Assembly: GCF_003946345.1 (NCBI RefSeq)
Contig: NZ_RHNY01000006.1
Location: 1 to 64,000 of the forward strand
Source: Levilactobacillus tongjiangensis
GTDB taxonomy: Bacteria; Bacillota; Bacilli; Lactobacillales; Lactobacillaceae
Length of the DNA stretch: 64,000 bases
Direction: 5' to 3'
Part shown: positions 84 through 63,324 of the stretch, piece by piece
Position numbering within the stretch: position 1 is the stretch's first letter
Layout: the number at the start of each line of letters is the position of its first letter
Notes under the pieces: generated by a model
What the model was told of the DNA's origin: nothing
What the model saw: the letters and a program-made list of their open reading frames with translations, nothing else
The model's database searches: none
Translations under genes and position numbers: made by a program

Positions 84-235
84 GTTGCAGGATAAAGCAG
101 GCGCGTCGTTCTGCTTAGTCGGTAGGCGATTTTCCTACAAGCTTAGCAGAAGACCAAGCTTGTAGACTCGGTATTTTCGAGGCTTCAAGTTGTGTCCGCA
201 CCGTTCCAGCACATACCTGGTGACCGGTAAGGCGG
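84..235 (-). repeat. Dispersed structured intergenic element, type A, copy 1
   Basis: Member of the family described in the findings; forward sense is the minus strand. The conserved 5' end CCGCCTTACCGG lies at 235-224. The central stem (189-159) reads CTTGAAGCCTCG...CGAGTCTACAAG, and the 3' hairpin (149-111) reads CTGCTAAG...ACTAAGCAG with the conserved A-A mismatch. The outer closing stem is badly eroded on the 3' side, so this looks like a decaying copy. An open frame at 185-382 on the minus strand crosses it but has no coding character. Confidence 0.75.
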
Positions 236-8496: not shown

Positions 8497-8952
8497 GCAA
8501 GATTCCCTTAGATGGGTTGGCTAAATGCTTAATCTACGCTTTCTGTATCTAACAACATCAGAGCGTTTTGCAATATGGTCAAGTGTTGACATGACGTATA
8601 ACGATTACGCTAGGGTGGCGATTGATCGACAGCTATCTGAATTTCCAGAAGAGGTCTAGATGGACAGCTGAAGGTTGAAAGTAAGCTTCTTGTAATAGGC
8701 AATCATAATGAATATTGTCCTGATTTAACGATGACCAATCATTTTGGTAAATTTGGTGGTAGGTCGGCAGACTGCGGTCGTCGATGATTGTCGATTATCG
8801 GCTGTTAAGTTGGTGTTTGTATTAATCAATAAGCCAAGTAATGCGGTTTGTCAATTGGCCAGCCAATCACGCTTTTTTTAAAGGTCACACAAAAACCGCC
8901 ATCCCAGGACTAATCTGGAATGGCGGTTTTAAGTTGCGTTAGTCTGAGTTGC
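8497..8952. other. Gene-free stretch, possibly a decayed gene
   Basis: This 456-base gap has no intact gene. A 44-codon frame (8525-8659, product ending ARVAIDRQLSEFPEEV) is followed in another frame by a further sense-like stretch up to about 8785. No ribosome site stands before it. The pattern is what a frameshifted remnant looks like, but I cannot name a parent gene. The yidC terminator lies at 8891-8930. Confidence 0.35.
8891..8932. terminator. Terminator of yidC (works both ways)
   Basis: AAAACCGCCATtCCAG and CTGGAATGGCGGTTTT-type arms (8891-8906 with 8914-8930) form a strong stem with T-runs on both sides. Confidence 0.85.
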
Positions 8953-18852: not shown

Positions 18853-18902
18853 AGTCGTTTAAAACGATACTAATTAAATGCCGAAAGATAAATTAATTGA
18901 TC

Positions 18903-19096
18903 GCACTCCGGAGGCCAGAGATTCCGCCTGCTGTGGGGACGCTTCAGACTGGAATAGCACCAGTCTTCTCGCTCGATTTGAAGCCACGAAGACCCCGTGT
19001 CTCCAAAGTCGCCCGTGGTGTAAGTTGGAAAAATCACCAACTAACACCACAATCACGGCTGGCCGAATCCCTGGCCTCCTCCGGCTTTGATTGTGT
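18903..19096 (+). repeat. Dispersed structured intergenic element, type B, copy 2
   Basis: Closing stem: GGAGGCCAGAGATTCCGCC (18910-18928) with GGCCGAATCCCTGGCCTCC (19061-19079), 16 or more pairs. Stem P2: AGACTGG/CCAGTCT (18946-18966). Central stem P3: TTTGAAGCCACG...CGTGTCTCCAAA (18977-19007). Hairpin P4: GTGGTGTAAGTTGG/CCAACTAACACCAC (19015-19050), with a single internal A-A mismatch. The element lies in the 3' region of greA in the sense direction. Open frames crossing it on both strands (about 70 codons) are by-products of its GC content. Confidence 0.85.
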
Positions 19097-30704: not shown

Positions 30705-32045
30705 ATGGCAAAACGGGACTATTCAAAAGATGATATTCGTCAAATGGCGAAGGATGAAAACGTCAAGTTTCTTCGTCTGATGTTCACCGACTTGTTCGGG
30801 ACAATCAAGAACGTCGAAGTACCAATCAGCCAACTCGGTAAGTTGCTTGATAACAAGCTAATGTTTGATGGTTCTTCAATTGACGGGTTCGTCCGCATTG
30901 AAGAAAGTGACATGTACCTGTACCCGGACCTTTCCACGTGGATGATTTTCCCATGGAGTACGGAACGGGGTAAAATCGCTCGGGTTATTTGTGAGGTTTA
31001 CACGACTGATGGGAAACCATTTGAAGGGGACCCACGGAACAACTTGATCCGGGTTCTTAACGACATGCGTAAGGCGGGCTTTACCGACTTTAACATTGGA
31101 CCAGAACCTGAATTCTTCTTGTTCAAGATGGATGAAAATGGCAAGCCAACGACTGAACTCAACGACAAGGGGAGCTACTTCGATATGGCCCCAATGGACT
31201 TGGGCGAAAACTGCCGGCGTGAAATCGTCTTGACCTTGGAAGAAATGGGCTTTGACGTTGAAGCAGCGCACCATGAAGTGGCGCCTGGCCAACATGAAAT
31301 TGACTTTAAGTATGCCGACGCATTGACTGCGGCCGACAACATTCAAACCTTTAAATTAGTTGTGAAGACCATTGCGCGGAAGTACGGCCTCTACGCAACG
31401 TTCATGCCAAAACCTTTGGCTGGTATCAACGGCTCGGGGATGCATTTGAACATGTCACTCTTCCATGACAAGGGGAACGCCTTCTTCGATGAAAAGGGTA
31501 AGATGCAATTGTCAGAAGACGCTTACCATTTCTTGGGTGGCTTGATGAAGCATGCCCGGAGCTTCACGGCTATCTGCAACCCAATCGTTAACAGTTACAA
31601 GCGCTTAGTTCCTGGCTACGAAGCACCCGTTTACGTTGCTTGGTCTGGCTCTAACCGGTCACCATTGATTCGAGTACCAAACTCCCGTGGTTTGTCCACC
31701 CGTTTGGAAGTTCGGAGTGTGGACCCAGCTGCTAACCCATACTTGGCTATCGCTGCCATGTTGGAAGCTGGTCTTGATGGGTTACGGAATAAGTTGGCGC
31801 CACAAGAGGCTGTCGACCGGAACATTTACCGGATGGATGCCGAAGAACGTCAGGAAAACCATATTACGAACTTACCAGATACCTTGCACAACGCCTTGAA
31901 GGACTTAGCTGCCGACGACGTCATGCGTGGGGCCATGGGTAAGCACTTGTTCCAAAGCTTCATCGAAGCCAAGAACTTGGAATACAACTCTTACCGGACA
32001 CAGGTTTCTCAATGGGAACGTGACCAGTACTTGGAATTGTACTAA
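30705..32045 (+). CDS. glnA: Glutamine synthetase type I
   Basis: This 446-residue enzyme makes glutamine from glutamate, ammonia and ATP as a dodecamer. Signature regions: FDGSSIDGF (near 59), the metal-binding GPEPEFFLF, the ATP-binding [18 protein letters not shown] and NRSPLIRVP. The adenylylation Tyr region is replaced, as in the GSI-alpha class of Firmicutes, which is controlled by GlnR and feedback rather than adenylylation; the Arg of the MDAEERQ region is the feedback residue area. Preferred codons suggest high expression. Confidence 0.97.
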
Positions 32046-32235: not shown

Positions 32236-32406
32236 CCGCCTTACCAGCAGCCAGATATGGGCTGGAACGGTGCGGACACAACTTGAAGCCTCGAAAGCCC
32301 CGAGTCTACAAGCTTGGTCTTCTGCTAAGTCAGTAGGAAAAGACGCCTACTAACTAAGCAGAACGACGCGCCTGAGCCCATATCTGGCTGCCTCTCGGCC
32401 TACACA
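32236..32406 (+). repeat. Dispersed structured intergenic element, type A, copy 3
   Basis: The best-preserved type A copy. Closing stem P1: CAGCCAGATATGGGCT (32248-32263) with AGCCCATATCTGGCTG (32375-32390), 16 of 16. Small hairpin GTG-CGGA-CAC follows. Central stem P3: CTTGAAGCCTCG...CGAGTCTACAAG (32282-32312). Hairpin P4: CTGCTAAGTCAGTAGG (32322-32337) with CCTACTAACTAAGCAG (32346-32361). It starts 40 bases after the glnA terminator, same direction. Confidence 0.88.
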
Positions 32407-32478
32407 GTGTTCTATTGTCAATCAACGAGGCTGTTAGGAGTGGTTCAACTAAACCTCTGTCAGCGGTATTCGTGTTAC

Positions 32479-32515
32479 ACCACTATTAGAGCCGGAATCC
32501 CTGGCCTCCGGAGCG
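32479..32515 (-). repeat. Deletion remnant of a type B element, copy 4
   Basis: The two outer ends of a type B element (as at 40259-40453) are fused: TAGAGCCGG is joined directly to AATCCCTGGCCTCCGGAGCGC, and about 150 bases of interior are gone. The neighbouring sequence (TTACACCAC on the left) also matches the 40 kb locus, so this is the same composite insertion after an internal deletion. Confidence 0.65.
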
Positions 32516-32749
32516 CTTAGTTAGTGGTCAAAAGTATTTATCGGCTCATGGGTTAGCACCATAAATTGGAGAATATTTGTCTTCAAATGGTCGTAATTTT
32601 TAAGTAGTTTGGGGTTTGGGTTAAAAATTTCGTGGTTTTCACGTGAAATTCCTGCAAACTGCTTTATTCTGTGCGGATTTTTGGTAACATGAAGCTATAA
32701 CCAAATGTTCACGGCAAGCGCTAGAGAACATCAGAATGAGGGATAATTC

Positions 32750-35829: not shown

Positions 35830-35947
35830 GTTGTATTTGTGGACTTCCACAGCTGCAACCGCTCGGGACAAGTTAGTTAAGATTTCCGCTTGCGGAGCAC
35901 TTGTTTTCGGCGAGTCTAAGTCTAAATATATAAGGAGGTGCACATAC
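35830..35947 (+). promoter_or_regulatory. Ribosomal protein L21 leader RNA
   Basis: About 115 bases of untranslated leader between the promoter and rplU contain hairpins (GTGGACTTCCAC; GCTTGCGGAGC-type) and the AAGGAGGTG ribosome site. Firmicute rplU operons are known to carry the L21 leader, thought to bind a ribosomal protein for feedback control. Position and layout fit; I did not verify the consensus. Confidence 0.65.
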
Positions 35948-37138: not shown

Positions 37139-37297
37139 CTGTGTAAGCCGAGAGGTCGGCCATTCTGGGCTCAGGCGCCGCGTTGTTTTTGATCGTTTAC
37201 GGCTTAGACCAAGACCGAGCTTTAAGACTTGTGGGTTTCAAGGCTTAAAGTTGTGGCGGCACCGTTCCAGCCCAGAATGGCCGACCGGTAAGGCGAC
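37139..37297 (-). repeat. Dispersed structured intergenic element, type A, copy 5
   Basis: Closing stem P1 is a perfect 18-bp inverted repeat, GGTCGGCCATTCTGGGCT (37154-37171) with AGCCCAGAATGGCCGACC (37269-37286); its sequence differs from copy 3 at several paired positions. Central stem P3 on the minus strand: CTTTAAGCCTTG...CAAGTCTTAAAG (37250-37220). The P4 hairpin is eroded. Ends CCGCCTTACCGG-like (37297) and CTCTCGGCTTACACAG (37154-37139) match copies 3 and 6. The only type A copy antisense to the gene before it. Confidence 0.85.
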
Positions 37298-39075: not shown

Positions 39076-39516
39076 ATGGCAGAAGATACTAATATTATTT
39101 TAGAATCCAAGGAACCTGCTTTGGGCAAGATCGAAGTGGCACCGCAAGTCCTCGAAATCATCGTCGGCATCGCGGCTAGTCAAACTGAAGGGGTCGCTCG
39201 GATGCGAGGTTCTCTGGCAAACAGCGTCACCGAATTATTTGGTCGCAAGGAGCAACATGGCAAGGGCGTTAAGTTAGTCTTTGACGGCGACGAATTGGCG
39301 GTCGATGTCTACGTTTACTTGAATTACGGGGTAGCGGTTCCCAAGGTTGCCTTGGCCATTCAAGATAGCGTGAAGCAACAATTGTTGTTCATGACGGACC
39401 TCGATTTACGTGAAGTTAACGTTCACGTGGAAGGCGTCATTCCCGAAAAGACGGCGCAACAGGTCGATCCAGATAACCTGTTCAACCAGACCGATGAAGG
39501 AGACAGTGACCAATAG
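39076..39516 (+). CDS. Asp23/Gls24-family protein (YqhY type)
   Basis: A 146-residue protein with the Asp23 core: GKIEVAPQVLEIIVGIAASQ, the VDVYVYLNYGVAVPKVALAIQDSV strand-helix and VNVHVEGVIPEK. YqhY-type members sit in the acc/efp-nusB region of Firmicutes and are linked to fatty acid synthesis control. Its stop codon is followed immediately by the nusB start (shared base), implying coupled translation. A second family member (yloU) starts at the window's end. Confidence 0.92.
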   Translation: MAEDTNIILESKEPALGKIEVAPQVLEIIVGIAASQTEGVARMRGSLANSVTELFGRKEQHGKGVKLVFDGDELAVDVYVYLNYGVAVPKVALAIQDSVKQQLLFMTDLDLREVNVHVEGVIPEKTAQQVDPDNLFNQTDEGDSDQ

Positions 39517-39947
39517 TGACACTTACACGACATCAAATTCGGGAACGCGCGTTTCAAATGCTTTTTGCCTTGAACGCCAATCCCGATGCCGATCATGATG
39601 CGTTGTTTCAACGTGTTTTGACGGATGACCCGAACCAACTCGTTCCAGTGCCAGATTACTTACAGACTCTGGTAGACGGCGTTTTAGCGAGCCAAAGTGA
39701 TTTGGATGCGCAAATCGACCAATACTTGAGTACTGGGTGGCAATTAAAGCGAATCGCCAAGACTGACTTGGTGATCTTGCGGTTGGCATTTTACGAAATC
39801 GATGACGTGGAAGAAGTTCCTAACCGTGTAGCCGTTAACGAAGCCTTGGAATTAGCCAAGAAGTTTAGTGACGACCGGTCCCGTCGGTTCATCAACGGTG
39901 TGTTAGCACATACGTTAGATGGCGACGACGCGAATACAGAATCCTAG
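39516..39947 (+). CDS. nusB: Transcription antitermination factor NusB
   Basis: A 143-residue all-helical RNA-binding protein that acts with NusE in rRNA antitermination. N-terminal TRHQIRERAFQMLFAL and C-terminal VPNRVAVNEALELAKKFSDDRSRRFINGVL are diagnostic. Starts at GTG 39516, overlapping the previous stop. Followed by a strong terminator, then a double repeat element. Confidence 0.96.
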   Translation: MTLTRHQIRERAFQMLFALNANPDADHDALFQRVLTDDPNQLVPVPDYLQTLVDGVLASQSDLDAQIDQYLSTGWQLKRIAKTDLVILRLAFYEIDDVEEVPNRVAVNEALELAKKFSDDRSRRFINGVLAHTLDGDDANTES

Positions 39948-40006: not shown

Positions 40007-40180
40007 CCCGCCTTACCGCCCGCCAGATATGGGCTGAAACGGTGCAGACGCAACTTGAAACCTCGAAAGAAGTGAGTTTTCAGGCATGGTCTTCAGCTAA
40101 GCCAATTTGGAAGAACATCTACTGACCAAGCAGAACGATACGCCTGAGTCCACGTCTGGCAGTCCCTTGGCTTATACAGT
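40007..40180 (+). repeat. Dispersed structured intergenic element, type A, copy 6
   Basis: Begins three bases after the nusB terminator T-run, with the conserved CCGCCTTACCG. Closing stem GCCAGATATGGGCT (40022-40035) with AGTCCACGTCTGGC (40147-40160): 11 Watson-Crick pairs, two G-T pairs and one mismatch, i.e. pairing that survives better as RNA. Central stem CTTGAAACCTCG...GTGAGTTTTCAGG is weakened. P4 is eroded. Ends GGCTTATACAG as in copy 3. Confidence 0.8.
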
Positions 40181-40258
40181 ATTTTGCTAGAGCTGTCTGC
40201 TATCGGTTAGACCGTTACGCATGGTTCCAGTAAACTCTGTTAGCAAGAAATATATTAC

Positions 40259-40453
40259 ACCACAATCAGAGCCGGAGGAGGCCAGAGATGTCGCCAGCCG
40301 TGAAAGTGGTGTTTGCTGGTGATTTTCCAACTTACAGCACGGGCGACTTTGAAGACACGGGTTTTTCGTGGCTTCAAAGCGAGCGAGAAGACTGGTATTC
40401 TTCCAGTCTGAAGCGTCCTCACAGCAGGCGACATCTCTGGCCTCCGGAGTGCG
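40259..40453 (-). repeat. Dispersed structured intergenic element, type B, copy 7
   Basis: Closing stem is a perfect 19-bp inverted repeat: GGAGGCCAGAGATGTCGCC (40277-40295) with GGCGACATCTCTGGCCTCC (40427-40445). P2 AGACTGG/CCAGTCT (40389-40409). Central stem on the minus strand TTTGAAGCCACG...CGTGTCTTCAAA (40378-40348). P4 at 40340-40307. It faces the type A copy next to it, separated by a spacer related to the one at 32407-32478. Confidence 0.88.
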
Positions 40454-40670
40454 ACTAATTAGGTCAAGGCTTAGAAATCAGGTTCATTGGACTGGTCAGA
40501 TTCACGGAGACTATTCTGAATGGAAATGAGTAGGTAACTTATTTGACCGGTTGGAGAACATCCGATTGGTTAAACTAAAAGTGCGACCTGAACTGAGGTG
40601 TTCGGTCCCGTTTTGCTGGCGAATATGCTAAAATAATAGGTAACTTTAAATTTTGGGGAGGACGAGCTTC

Positions 40671-41522
40671 ATGACGACCATCATCGATGGCAAGCAACTT
40701 GCTAAGGAAGTTAACGCAAAGACTAAGGAACGGGTATCCGCACTGAAAGAACGTGGACGCGTTCCTGGGCTCGTGGTGATCATCGTGGGGGATGATCCAG
40801 CCAGTGCCATTTATGTGCGTAACAAGCACCGTAAGGCAACACAATTGGGTATCAACTCTATTGTGCGGGAACTCCCCGCAACGGTTAGTCAGGAAGAACT
40901 GTTGGCCATCGTTGAAACCTACAACGTGGATCCTAGCGTTCACGGAATTTTGGTGCAATCTCCGTTACCAGTGGGATTGGATGAACAGGCTATTGTAGCG
41001 GCTATCGATCCGGCTAAGGATGTTGATGGGTTCCACCCCTTGAACGTGGGGCGGCTGTTTGCTAATCTGCCCGGGAATCATCCGGTTTCGTGCACCCCGC
41101 GGGGCATCATGACGATGCTGCATTCTTTACCTGTCCACTTACGAGGCAAACACGCGGTGGTGGTTGGTCGGAGTATGATCGTTGGCCGGCCAATGGCAGC
41201 AATGCTGTTGAATGCCGACATGACGGTTAGTGTGGCCCATATTTATACGAAGAATTTAAGCGAATTGACCCGGACCGCCGATGTTTTAGTCGTTGCGACC
41301 GGTGTTGCACATCTGATCAAAGAAAAAGATGTAAAGCCTGGTGCCATCGTCATTGACGTGGGAATGGACCGCGACGAAAACGGCAAACTGACCGGAGATG
41401 TCGATTTTGATGGCGTTGCGGAGAAAACTGCAGCCATTACGCCGGTACCCGGTGGTGTTGGGCCGATGACGATTGCCACCTTGATGGAACAAACTGTTGA
41501 TTTATGTGAGTGGAGTGAATAA
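40671..41522 (+). CDS. folD: Methylenetetrahydrofolate dehydrogenase/cyclohydrolase FolD
   Basis: A 283-residue bifunctional enzyme that interconverts 5,10-methylene-, methenyl- and 10-formyl-THF with NADP. Catalytic Lys lies in YVRNKHRKATQLGI (near 56), followed by QSPLPVGLDE, the KDVDGFHPLNVG loop and VVVGRSMIVGRPMA for the cofactor. The start ATG 40671 follows GGGGAGGACGAGCTTC; six further codons upstream have no ribosome site. It opens the folD-xseA-xseB-ispA-tlyA operon. Confidence 0.96.
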   Translation: MTTIIDGKQLAKEVNAKTKERVSALKERGRVPGLVVIIVGDDPASAIYVRNKHRKATQLGINSIVRELPATVSQEELLAIVETYNVDPSVHGILVQSPLPVGLDEQAIVAAIDPAKDVDGFHPLNVGRLFANLPGNHPVSCTPRGIMTMLHSLPVHLRGKHAVVVGRSMIVGRPMAAMLLNADMTVSVAHIYTKNLSELTRTADVLVVATGVAHLIKEKDVKPGAIVIDVGMDRDENGKLTGDVDFDGVAEKTAAITPVPGGVGPMTIATLMEQTVDLCEWSE

Positions 41523-47378: not shown

Positions 47379-49586
47379 ATGGGAAAGAAATTGGCAGCAT
47401 GGAGTTTGGGGTTTTTAGTTACTTTTATAGTTTTATTTGGTTTTCAGGGGTCTGCGTCGGCAGACAGTATTGACGGTCAGGTGCAGGGGTTAGATGCACC
47501 TAGCAAAATTATGGAACAAACTGGTGATAGTAATACCTACACGGAAGTGCCAAAGGATTCACCACTGCTTTCTGGTCAGAGCTATCAATTGTATTATGAT
47601 TGGACAGTGACGAATGGGACCAATATTAAAGATGGTGACACAGCAACCGTTACTTTGCCGACAACAGCTGGTCATGGGCCAATCGGTTTTGATGTTAAGA
47701 CTGGTGACCAGTCAGCGACAACTATTGGTAGTTTTTCGATTGACGCTGATGCTACAACGGGGGAAATCACCTTTAATGATAAGCTCGCTAACGTGAATAC
47801 CTATAATAAGGGAACGATGAAAATTAACGCGACCGGGAACGCTACGGACACTTCTGGTGGTGGAAATGACTATGTGATTGCCAAGAACGGTTGGGTTCAA
47901 AAGGATGATTATGATGCTAATAAGATTCCGACCCGAGTTGTTTGGCAGATTGTTTTTAATCCCAAAGAAGAAAATATGGGGACGGTGACGTTAACGGATG
48001 ATCTCGGTGGCTATCAGAGCTTTGATAGTGAACATGGTGTTACGGCAAATGATGAAGACGGGACTAAACTAACGCCAACCGTCGAGGTGACCGGGTCACA
48101 AATAAAGATGGTGTTTAAAAACGTCACCAAGAAAGTCACTCTGTCTTACTACGCCAAGGTTGATTCTAGTAGCTTGACTGGACAAACGGCTGGCTACTTT
48201 GGGAATTATGTAGGCTTGGAAGCCGAAGACGGTGAAACGGGAAGTGCCGGAACTGGTTCTGGTTCCGGTTCAAATCCAGCCACGCCGAATATAACGGCTG
48301 ATACCCATAAGGACGCTCCGTGGGGCGGTAGCGCAGAAATTGATGTGACGTACATTGGCAGTGTGACGTTGACTAAGAAGGACGCGACTACGGGCAGTCT
48401 TTTACCTGGTGCAACTTATACACTCCAGAAGAAGAACAGTGATGGCTTGTTTACTGATTATCAGACCCATTTGGTCACCGATTCAAAGGGACAAATTAAT
48501 AGTACGTCCTTGGAAGTTGGTGACTATCAGTTTGTTGAAACGGCGGCACCTAAAGGCTATCAAATAAATCCAGCAACAGTTCCATTTAGTATTGGACCAC
48601 AAAACACAGATTCACACGTGGATGTATCGCAGACAGATACCCAAGGTTCCGTAACTTTGACCAAGATAGACAAGGATTCTGGCGAGAAGTTAAAGGGTGC
48701 CGTGTTCCAATTGGCTGATAAGGATGGCAATGCCATTGGTACCAATACTTATACAACCGGGGATGACGGGACGTTTACTGTGAATGGTCTGGCACCAGGG
48801 ACGTATGAGTTCGTTGAAACGGCGGCACCAACTGGGTATAAGGTTGGTGAGCCTAAGCAATTTACAATTGAAGATACACAAGCAGCTGTACCTGCAGCTG
48901 TGGCCGTCACGCAGGAAGATGTATTGAGTTCAAGTTCAAGTTCAAGTTCAAGTTCAAGCTCAGACTCAAGTTCCAGTTCAGATTCCAATTCAGGTTCTGA
49001 ATCTGATTCAAGTTCAAGTTCAAGTTCTAGTGCAAGTTCTAGTGCAAGTTCGGACTCAAGTTCCAGTTCAGATTCCAATTCAGGTTCTGGCTCCGATTCA
49101 AGTTCTGGTTCAAGCTCGGGCTCAAATTCCAGTTCAGATTCCAATTCTGGTTCCAATTCAGGTTCTAGTTCTGGTTCAAGCTCAGGCTCAAATTCCGGAT
49201 CAAATTCTGGTTCAGATTCTAAATCCAGTTCACACTCGGGGTCAGATTCCAGTTCGGATTCTAACTCTGGTTCTAGCAGCAACTCGACATCATCAAGTGG
49301 TGGCAATCATTCCAAAATTAGTGTGACGCCCAGTGTTTCAACTAGTTCTTCCAGTACATCATCTACCAGTTCTTCCGACAACAGTGGTATGACCGGTGCA
49401 ACCGCAACACCAAGTGCTAGTTCATCATCCAAGCATCCTGTTGGGGATGGGAATCTTATCTCAGCAGCCAAGCATCTATTACCACAGACTAGTGAAGCCA
49501 AGAGCATCTTTGCCGTTTTAGGCGGTGTCCTTTTACTCGGTTTTGGCCTTAGTTTCTGGCAATGGCGGCGTGAACGACGCAACTAA
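47379..49586 (+). CDS. Cell-wall-anchored adhesin with CnaB and Ser/Asp-rich repeats
   Basis: A 735-residue surface protein. Signal peptide 1-29 (ends SASA-DS). Residues about 30-320 form an MSCRAMM-like adhesive region. Two CnaB-type domains follow (about 327-412 and 424-508), each with the Lys of VTLTK and the Glu of FVETAAP that form an isopeptide bond. A stalk of roughly 150 residues is almost only Ser, Asp, Gly and Asn (about 512-665), built on near-perfect AGTTCA-type hexamer repeats. It ends with the sorting signal LPQTSE (near 700), a hydrophobic helix and RRERRN; LPQTxE is the lactobacillus variant of LPxTG. The ligand is unknown. Ser/Asp stalks are often glycosylated. Single gene. 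Confidence 0.93.
48926..49300 (+). repeat. Degenerate AGTTCA hexamer tract encoding the Ser-rich stalk
   Basis: Inside the adhesin gene, the run starting at 48926 repeats AGTTCA six or more times exactly, then degenerates into TCA/TCC/TCT and GAT/AAT/GGT variants with longer duplicated blocks, e.g. a 40-base unit at about 48955-48995 recurs at about 49045-49085. Such tracts change length by slippage or recombination. The multiples of three keep the frame. Confidence 0.85.
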
Positions 49587-62370: not shown

Positions 62371-62573
62371 GCCGCCTGCGGCTGCCAGGACTGGAACCGG
62401 CTGTGGGGTCGCTTCCGGCCTGAGAAGCGGTCCTCCAGCTCAACTTGAAGCCTTTCGCAGACCACGCAAGTCTCCAAGCTTGCCCCATGGTGTAAGTTCG
62501 GGCAGAGCCCACCCAAACTAACACCATCGACACCGCCGGTCCCAGTCCTGGCAACCTCCGGCTACATTGATGT
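62371..62573 (+). repeat. Dispersed structured intergenic element, type B', copy 8
   Basis: Closing stem TGCCAGGACTGGAACCGG (62383-62400) with CCGGTCCCAGTCCTGGCA (62536-62553), 17 of 18. P2 CGCTTC/GAAGCG enclosing CGGCCTGA. Central stem CTTGAAGCCTT...AAGTCTCCAAG (62444-62478). P4 ATGGTGTAAGTTCGGGC with GCCC...AACTAACACCAT (62487-62527). Starts five bases after the thiN terminator T-run. Confidence 0.85.
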
Positions 62574-62967
62574 ATTTTGAAATATTAGGTGGTTGGTCGT
62601 GACATAGTAAGAGTGATTTTCAACCTGACCAACCTGATATAGGGAAATTGGTGGTTGTTAATGCAGGGTGCAAGTTAACTTTTTGCAGAATTGCTAAATT
62701 GAATTGAAGAAAAAATAATTTCTTTTTTGATTTAAAATTTCTAGTAGAAACCTGATTTTGAAAGCCAGTTTCTTCGATTGCTAAGTATTATTTGCCATAT
62801 GCCTGATACAACAAAATTTGGGTGTTGGGAGTTAGTCAGATATTGTGGAGAAGTACCACCTTAACGTTTGCCAAATTCGACTGACTCTTGGCAACCTAGT
62901 GGCGCGCCAATAAAATTTAGGAAGTACTGTCACTCAGGCATCTAATCTAACTTAGTTTTCAAGAACC

Positions 62968-63153
62968 TGTTTAACCGGAGGGGGTCAGAGGTGGAGCCAG
63001 CTGTGTCGACGGTGTTAGCCGATTTTCGGCTTACAGCGTGGGACGCGTTTGGAGACTGGTGGTTTTCCAGGCTTCAAACCGAGCCGCAGGACCGCTTTTC
63101 AGGCCGGAGGCGTTCCCCACAGCAGGCGGAATCTCTGACCGCCGCAGGTGGCT
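62968..63153 (-). repeat. Dispersed structured intergenic element, type B', copy 9
   Basis: Forward sense is the minus strand. Closing stem GGGGGTCAGAGGTGGAGCC (62980-62998) with GGCGGAATCTCTGACCGCC (63125-63143), partly mispaired. Central stem on minus: TTTGAAGCCTGG...CCAGTCTCCAAA (63078-63048). P4 (63039-63009) ACGCTGTAAGCCG with CGGCTAACACCGT. It lies downstream of rpmB in the same direction as that gene and points away from the plus-strand copy 8. Confidence 0.82.
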
Positions 63154-63324
63154 GGGTGAGACCAATTTTAAGCCTATAACGACTTGCTATTCCGGGCTTG
63201 ATAACGGTTTTCGAACTTCCAATCTTCAGTAAATAGCAGTATATTAAGTAAAAATTGACCGGCGGATACATGAAACCTTTTCACTTGAGGTTGCAGTGAT
63301 AACCGCTTTCAAGTGGAGGAGACA

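Follow-up and report, generated by a model that had tools for sequence, protein, structure and literature searches.

Structured, mobile A-B repeats of Levilactobacillus as the probable interior of a MITE, with an ISPepr1-like IS4 element as the likely transposase source

The MITEs of bacterial insertion sequences (ISs) are short and gene-less, share terminal inverted repeats with an IS, are flanked by target duplications, reach high copy number, and lie mostly in intergenic DNA. The repeat described here is like them in these respects. It differs in that two long, related inverted arms with a branched, covarying fold make up most of its length, and in that no significant similarity to an IS extends beyond the 14-bp ends. 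For the IS4 family, the available part of a published survey gives as hallmarks a D(60-110)D(100-150)E spacing and a YREK motif, and characterizes an ISPepr1 subgroup by a length of 1500-1600 bp, ends of the form YT-AA-YTT---A, 7-8 bp duplications, and AT-rich targets (PMC2266710). Several structured repeats offer further comparisons. The excerpts used here on the bcr repeats of B. cereus describe mobile repeats of 100-400 bp, among them bcr1, which averages 39 copies per strain and whose secondary structure is conserved; mobility and conserved structure are likenesses to our element, but bcr mobility is tied to a TTTAT motif and possible site-specific recombination, and those excerpts make no mention of IS4-type ends (PMC6542083, PMC2267715). 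MRSC-65-2, as far as the quoted parts of its description go, is likewise present in many copies per genome, covaries strongly, and sometimes has a transposase gene nearby, and its structure, like that of the present arms, may act as RNA or DNA; it differs in having a single long stem with repeated UYCCGG and in occurring in diverse phyla, compared to the branched, paired arms in Lactobacillaceae reported here (PMC11109978). REP/REPIN sequences, in the accounts excerpted, are palindromes of 20-40 bp served by tyrosine RAYT transposases, unlike the present arms of ~165-184 nt with IS4-type ends and target duplications. We found no prior description of the element in the Lactobacillus and Levilactobacillus MITE or repeat literature, mostly in openly accessible journals.

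The window is the whole stretch of DNA that was analyzed, 64,000 nucleotides of Levilactobacillus tongjiangensis (contig NZ_RHNY01000006.1, positions 1 to 64,000). The focal composite of an A arm and a B arm lies between nusB and folD, and a second copy lies 3' of glnA. The features are as follows.

39516..39947, plus strand: nusB, left neighbor of the focal copy (Pfam NusB)
40009..40174, plus strand: A arm of the focal copy (HMM model positions 1-165, 158 bits)
40175..40266: spacer of the focal copy, common to other copies (alignments of A copies plus downstream sequence; gap distribution)
40267..40454, plus strand: B arm of the focal copy, resembling the reverse complement of A, with a branched fold (HMM 195 bits; fold z; B-family covariation)
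40671..41522, plus strand: folD, right neighbor of the focal copy (Pfam THF_DHG_CYH and THF_DHG_CYH_C on ORF 40653-41522; ATG at 40671)
30705..32045, plus strand: glnA, left neighbor of the second copy (Pfam Gln-synt_N and Gln-synt_C)
32237..32401, plus strand: A arm of the second composite copy, 3' of glnA (HMM 183 bits)
32402..32490: spacer of the second copy and the first B nucleotides (sequence, alignment)
32491..32516, plus strand: B remnant of the second copy, B interior deleted (HMM model positions 156-181 only, 7.9 bits)
98..234, minus strand: A arm (model positions 1-137) near the contig start (143 bits)
18901..19089, minus strand: B arm without a recognizable A arm (190 bits)
37144..37295, minus strand: divergent A arm (90 bits)
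62377..62564, minus strand: divergent B-type arm, left half of an inverted B-B pair (71 bits)
62972..63147, plus strand: divergent B-type arm, right half of the same B-B pair (90 bits)
63216..63230: right terminal-repeat-like sequence CTTCCAATCTTCAGT, with 2 mismatches, beyond the B-B pair (pattern scan)

At the focal site, the HMM edges agree with the order given in an earlier note on this DNA, a type A arm followed by an inverted type B arm at 40.0-40.45 kb, but put the gap between them at 92 nt, not ~78. The 471-nt region with this copy has a fold z of -5.7 to -6.3, and none of the ORFs of at least 80 aa extends into 40007-40454. The same composite had been claimed at 32.24-32.52 kb. An A arm and a related spacer are indeed found there (78% identity over 176 nt between the A copies at 32236 and 40008), and the short spacer blocks that had been named are readable in both window copies, but the B arm is absent: the B start AGAGCCGGA is followed by only ~26 nt of the B 3' end. 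A pattern scan of the window recognized no intact terminal repeat of the focal copy, which also lacks a target duplication; both composite copies in the window are old, without recognizable ends.

At five places in the window, the A profile and the B profile hit opposite strands of the same DNA (E = 3e-6 to 2e-4), and by sequence the two arms look like distant inverted relatives. B is palindromic, so its profile also matches its own opposite strand (E down to 1e-9), and part of the likeness between A and B may come from the fold. The inverted B-B pair with its terminal-repeat-like right end (62377-63230) is a divergent relative of the A-B element. Intergenic DNA at 8667-8681 contains GCTGAAGGTTGAAAG, a left terminal repeat without mismatch and with no recognizable arm nearby, possibly an armless or strongly decayed copy. 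The window also has a 12/18-base tandem repeat array at 48916-49305 within a 735-aa ORF (47379-49586), a repeat-bearing surface protein with SpaA, Big_8, and LPXTG-anchor domains.

Searching the strain's own genome (2.72 Mb in 43 contigs) with the composite gave 49 matches, two of them palindrome self-matches and seven, including the query, spanning A to B. The A query gave 25 matches (the best 40 of 54 first-look candidates were scored) and the B query at least 42 (the best 40 of 130). Across the genus, the repeat is present in 26 of 35 genomes, where the number of first-look candidates per genome reaches 306, and a single-hairpin pattern scan of named genomes returned at least 110 stretches, 109 from Levilactobacillus and one from an uncultured Lactobacillus among the matches listed.

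For a pairing count we used 134 A arms that are distinct, nearly complete, and followed by 420 nt or more of sequence, leaving out six with too little downstream sequence, and counted a B match when it exceeded 25 model positions. A same-strand B follows 91 of the 134 A arms and an opposite-strand B only one; same-strand and opposite-strand A arms follow two each, and 38 have no following arm, although a mini-B remnant is seen in 10 of these 38. The A-B gap has a median of 108 nt and is 80-130 nt in 72 of the 91 pairs. Because the composite itself was the query that retrieved some of the loci, fairer figures come from the named loci (retrieved by the single-hairpin pattern) and from the own genome. 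B is in the same orientation at 54 of the 84 named loci, with none opposite, and at 12 of 23 in the own genome, where one B and two A arms are opposite. The composite, and not merely its parts, has multiplied as a unit, as the earlier note proposed. B arms without a recognizable A at many places (for example, 18901-19089 in the window), together with the 43 of 134 A arms lacking a same-orientation B match, are what could be said for A and B being independent repeats that adjoin by chance, a reading that is next to impossible given that order, orientation, and gap are common to 91 of 134 with one opposite, that the spacers align, and that the same terminal repeats enclose both arms. The pairing counts over the 134 A arms refute such independence, and the outcome that had been set against the composite, independent arms with unalignable spacers, is not what the genus presents.

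The earlier note had also taken A and B for the facing ends of a larger mobile unit that had lost its center. Mobility is borne out by target duplications, terminal repeats, and an empty site, and the halves do face each other. We rejected A and B as outer ends, however: the true 14-bp ends lie further out, separated from A by ~72 nt and from B by ~65 nt, and are flanked by target duplications. Nor does a center seem to have been lost, as a short spacer (median 108 nt) is what most A-B pairs of the genus have, and no A-x-B pair with a gene inside was seen at gaps up to 420 nt or between paired ends in two genomes, among the matches listed. A complete element measures ~580-625 bp and consists of CTAAAGGTTGAAAG, ~72 nt, A (~165 nt), a spacer (~108 nt), B (~184 nt), ~65 nt, and the inverted terminal repeat; the sequence upstream of A is also conserved, in many rows over 75-80 nt. 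Better-preserved copies carry the 14-nt CTAAAGGTTGAAAG at the left and its reverse complement at the right, and, starting from 128 A arms, both terminal repeats were found in 19 copies. The terminal-repeat pattern (at most one mismatch) occurs 57 + 53 times in L. koreensis versus 2 + 1 for a reversed control, and 17 + 17 versus 3 + 1 in a second genome (G002).

Target duplications were studied in an L. koreensis sample of places chosen among the matches listed, mostly with two ends close together. There were 25 end pairings; two that join ends of different elements (L257 411-1681 and L323 574-1554) and an IS, described below, were left out, leaving 22 gene-less copies with both ends (at most one mismatch each) 250-624 bp apart. 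Exact target duplications of 6-9 bp flank 20 of these 22: 17 have flush duplications of 7-9 bp and three others have duplications of 6-7 bp that are offset by 1 nt, while two (L249 and L322) show no exact duplication. When left flanks were compared with the right flanks of other copies as a control, 4 of 600 passed. Thirteen exact flush duplications are 80% AT, compared to 51% in the loci. Five copies in the own genome have both ends; a 7-bp duplication flanks one of them and a 5-bp duplication another, and the remaining three have no exact one. A 304-bp L. koreensis copy (L250 237-540, G014:C98) has perfect ends and a TTTAGGTT duplication and has lost both arms from near the stem base. Three L. 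koreensis contigs (L258, L259, and L260) end ~40-250 nt past a left terminal repeat, as though the assembly had been interrupted within the repeats.

We searched for empty sites by joining the flanks of five own copies and comparing them to the two nearest genomes, G031 and G032. At one locus (L019) the own genome reads TTAATAC, a 582-bp element, and TTAACAC, and G032 has contiguous flanks with a single TTAGCAC, an empty site. At another (L028), an inner element is seemingly absent from G032 too, in an alignment that is poorer because an older arm adjoins. The site at nusB, which had been suggested for such a check, is less clear-cut: G032 has no element there but keeps an A-like remnant of ~25 nt, the mark of a deletion and not of a clean empty site. 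In the sister genome G031 the focal site holds the element, ~45 nt longer on the left. The nusB-folD spacer was compared at 30 loci of the genus, the own one among them: 10 have arms and a spacer of 579-915 nt, and 20 have no arms and a spacer of 136-576 nt. The arms at these loci occur in either orientation.

The IS set aside above, the one gene-bearing element found with these ends, is an L. koreensis end pair 1,559 bp apart that encloses a 450-aa transposase gene and is flanked by the 8-bp duplication CTGATTAA. Its transposase matches NCBIfam NF049925 (IS4 family) with 470 bits, against a cut-off of 250, as well as Pfam DDE_5 and DDE_Tnp_1, and both its D-106-D-114-E spacing and its YREK motif YARRWQIEGYFKVAK fit the IS4 hallmarks. 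In length, in 7 of 8 end consensus positions, in the YREK motif, in its 8-bp duplication, and in AT-rich targets, the IS is like the ISPepr1 subgroup as outlined in the part of the survey used here, an assignment by features and not by tree; the MITE is unlike that subgroup in having no transposase and in duplications of up to 9 bp (PMC2266710). If weak matches and fragments are counted, the transposase has matches in 18 of 35 genus genomes; none was found in the own genome. Several homologs or fragments at 68-100% identity have one or both ends with 0-2 mismatches, and a 50%-identical transposase subgroup has the ends ACTGAAACTTGAAAG. Relatives of the transposase are found on 161 plasmids, 156 of which carry relatives of less than 60% identity. 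Comparison of the IS and the MITE beyond the 14-bp ends gave no significant similarity (z at most 2.1). Mobilization would occur in trans, and the ISPepr1-like IS, which has only these ends in common with the MITE, is the likely source of the transposase.

We read the composite as the interior of a MITE that an IS4 transposase of ISPepr1 type would move in trans, with a fold that probably serves the element, and put the probability of this reading at roughly 0.87. The mobile MITE is well supported and its movement by such a transposase is likely; service of the fold to the element itself is suggested by the pattern of change within inserted copies given below. A transposase supplied by an IS with the same 14-bp ends would recognize the ends of the MITE and act on it in trans. 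Repeated insertion itself, with AT-rich target duplications of 6-9 bp, is shown, as are an empty site and an architecture common to the genus.

The repeat extends beyond the genus. A full L. koreensis element used as query (E up to 1e-5) matched 50 of 397 family genomes, in 6 of 40 genera, the own genus included. Twenty loci from other genera comprise ten with an inverted arm pair, nine with a single arm, and one with two same-direction arms. An automatic search for 13-nt terminal repeats in ten other-genus loci found none; by eye, a CTAAAAGTTGAAAG-like sequence is present near the arms at several other-genus loci. One 620-bp element had no DNA match in phage and plasmid collections, and carriage by either was rejected on that account.

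The fold was analyzed on B arms thinned for redundancy to 83, of which 80 (a few from other genera) were aligned and three omitted, and on A arms thinned to 54. RNAalifold predicts 37 pairs for the 80 B arms, 35 of them with compensatory changes. In a 54-pair B structure, 94.3% of cells are paired; shuffles give 82.3%, and sliding the structure by 1-3 columns leaves no more than 43.5%. Double-changed cells number 508 versus 126.5 in shuffles, and 44 of the 54 pairs have double changes. The 54 A arms behave similarly, with 92.2% paired, 45 of 55 pairs double-changed, and at most 44.1% paired when slid by 1-2 columns. In A as in B the branched fold is conserved, and compensatory changes support it from copy to copy and from species to species. 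A known RNA family was rejected as the identity of the arms for lack of an Rfam fit: one full element searched at E up to 5 gave a single chance-level match, and at the gathering threshold the only hit in the window is elsewhere, the ribosomal protein L21 leader (RF00559) at 35847-35927. The outward strand has the more stable fold in 62 of 80 B arms and 51 of 54 A arms. The balance of G-U to A-C depends on the prediction strand: it is 157:64 for B with the outward-strand prediction and 119:103 with the other strand, and 151:67 for A with the outward-strand prediction and reversed, at 69:152, with the other. In orthologous copies the balance is 58:39 (p = 0.067).

Change within single inserted copies was followed in 37 pairs of orthologous arms, each with one member from the own genome and the other from G031 or G032; 33 pairs were used and four below 82% identity dropped. 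Paired columns differ less than unpaired ones between orthologous copies, at 5.0% versus 9.9% in B and 4.6% versus 8.2% in A, and in 22 of 26 comparisons by locus the arms are less diverged than the non-arm parts of the element next to them (in sum, 8.2% versus 12.8% for G031; 6.8% versus 13.0% for G032). Measured against noncoding sequence outside the element (8.5% for G031, 7.9% for G032), the arms are hardly slower. Changed pairs are still paired in 65% of cases, versus 35% in a null in which substitution types are preserved (0/2000), and in 60% versus 35% in the set with at least 90% identity (0/2000). Double changes that keep pairing number 13 in the larger set against a null mean of 2.7; in the set with at least 90% identity there are two against 0.6, with 202 of 2000 as high. 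Loops do not share in this slow change: family-conserved B loops differ at 8.7% and moderately conserved ones at 8.9%, and in A both classes differ at 6.2%, versus 2.7% and 2.8% at conserved paired positions. Since loops drift within single inserted copies while pairing stays, loop sequences would seem to be kept only in the lineages that spread. On weaker grounds than those for mobility, we infer that pairing is kept or repaired in place and that loop identity is imposed only on lineages still spreading.

Could the host be the user of the fold? The arms would then be a structured non-coding RNA or a 3'-end mRNA element, with mobility secondary and copies retained for a use that the host makes of the folded RNA, such as termination or message stability. 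We consider this unlikely. Strong covariation would be expected of such an RNA, as would paired columns that change more slowly than unpaired ones (5.0% versus 9.9% in B, 4.6% versus 8.2% in A), arms below adjacent element sequence in divergence in 22 of 26 comparisons, pairing retained in 65% of changed cells versus 35% (0/2000), and a more stable fold on the outward strand (62/80 B, 51/54 A); but the family-conserved B loops are not slow in orthologous copies (8.7% versus 8.9%), the arms overall change about as fast as noncoding sequence outside the element (8.2% versus 8.5% and 6.8% versus 7.9%), and neither the arms in the window, at gathering threshold, nor one whole element, with its chance-level match, fits an Rfam family. 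The genomic setting is mixed. Elements are found between 27 of 85 convergent gene pairs, 40 of 223 co-directional pairs, and 15 of 104 divergent pairs by crude ORF calls, and the excess at convergent pairs fits insertion where harm is least, but also a role at 3' ends. Single arms between co-directional genes are oriented 34 versus 34, again by crude ORF calls, and this lack of preference argues against a read-through RNA role of one sense. In one element scanned, there are two promoter-like sites and one terminator site, versus 0.7 and 1.0 in shuffles, and one of the two promoter-like sites is in the spacer, pointing towards B, in keeping with a transcribed host element.

It is similarly doubtful that the covariation is mostly mutational, with imperfect DNA hairpins being corrected against their own other strand without selection. 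Such hairpin-templated correction could explain the stem part of the pattern, in which stems are slow and conserved loops are not in orthologous copies and pairing-keeping double changes are in excess (13 versus 2.7), and it is in line with the occasional loss of arms from near the stem base, as in the B remnant at 32.5 kb and the 304-bp armless copy. It does not explain why loop and junction positions are conserved across copies of many species, and the excess of double changes is weak at 90% identity or more (2 versus 0.6, 202/2000 as high).

Within the MITE reading favored above, as the loops drift but pairing is kept within inserted copies, the fold most likely belongs to the element's own life cycle, as RNA or single-stranded DNA, rather than to a host function. 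Quite tentatively, and with the odds against it, the arms may be an undescribed RNA or single-stranded DNA domain, present twice in inverted order and required for spreading beside the ends recognized by the transposase, in several genera of Lactobacillaceae. Covariation alone is easily taken as proof of a host-functional RNA. The abundant Levilactobacillus elements may be a natural case in which a strongly covarying fold is kept for the spread of a transposon rather than for use by its host.
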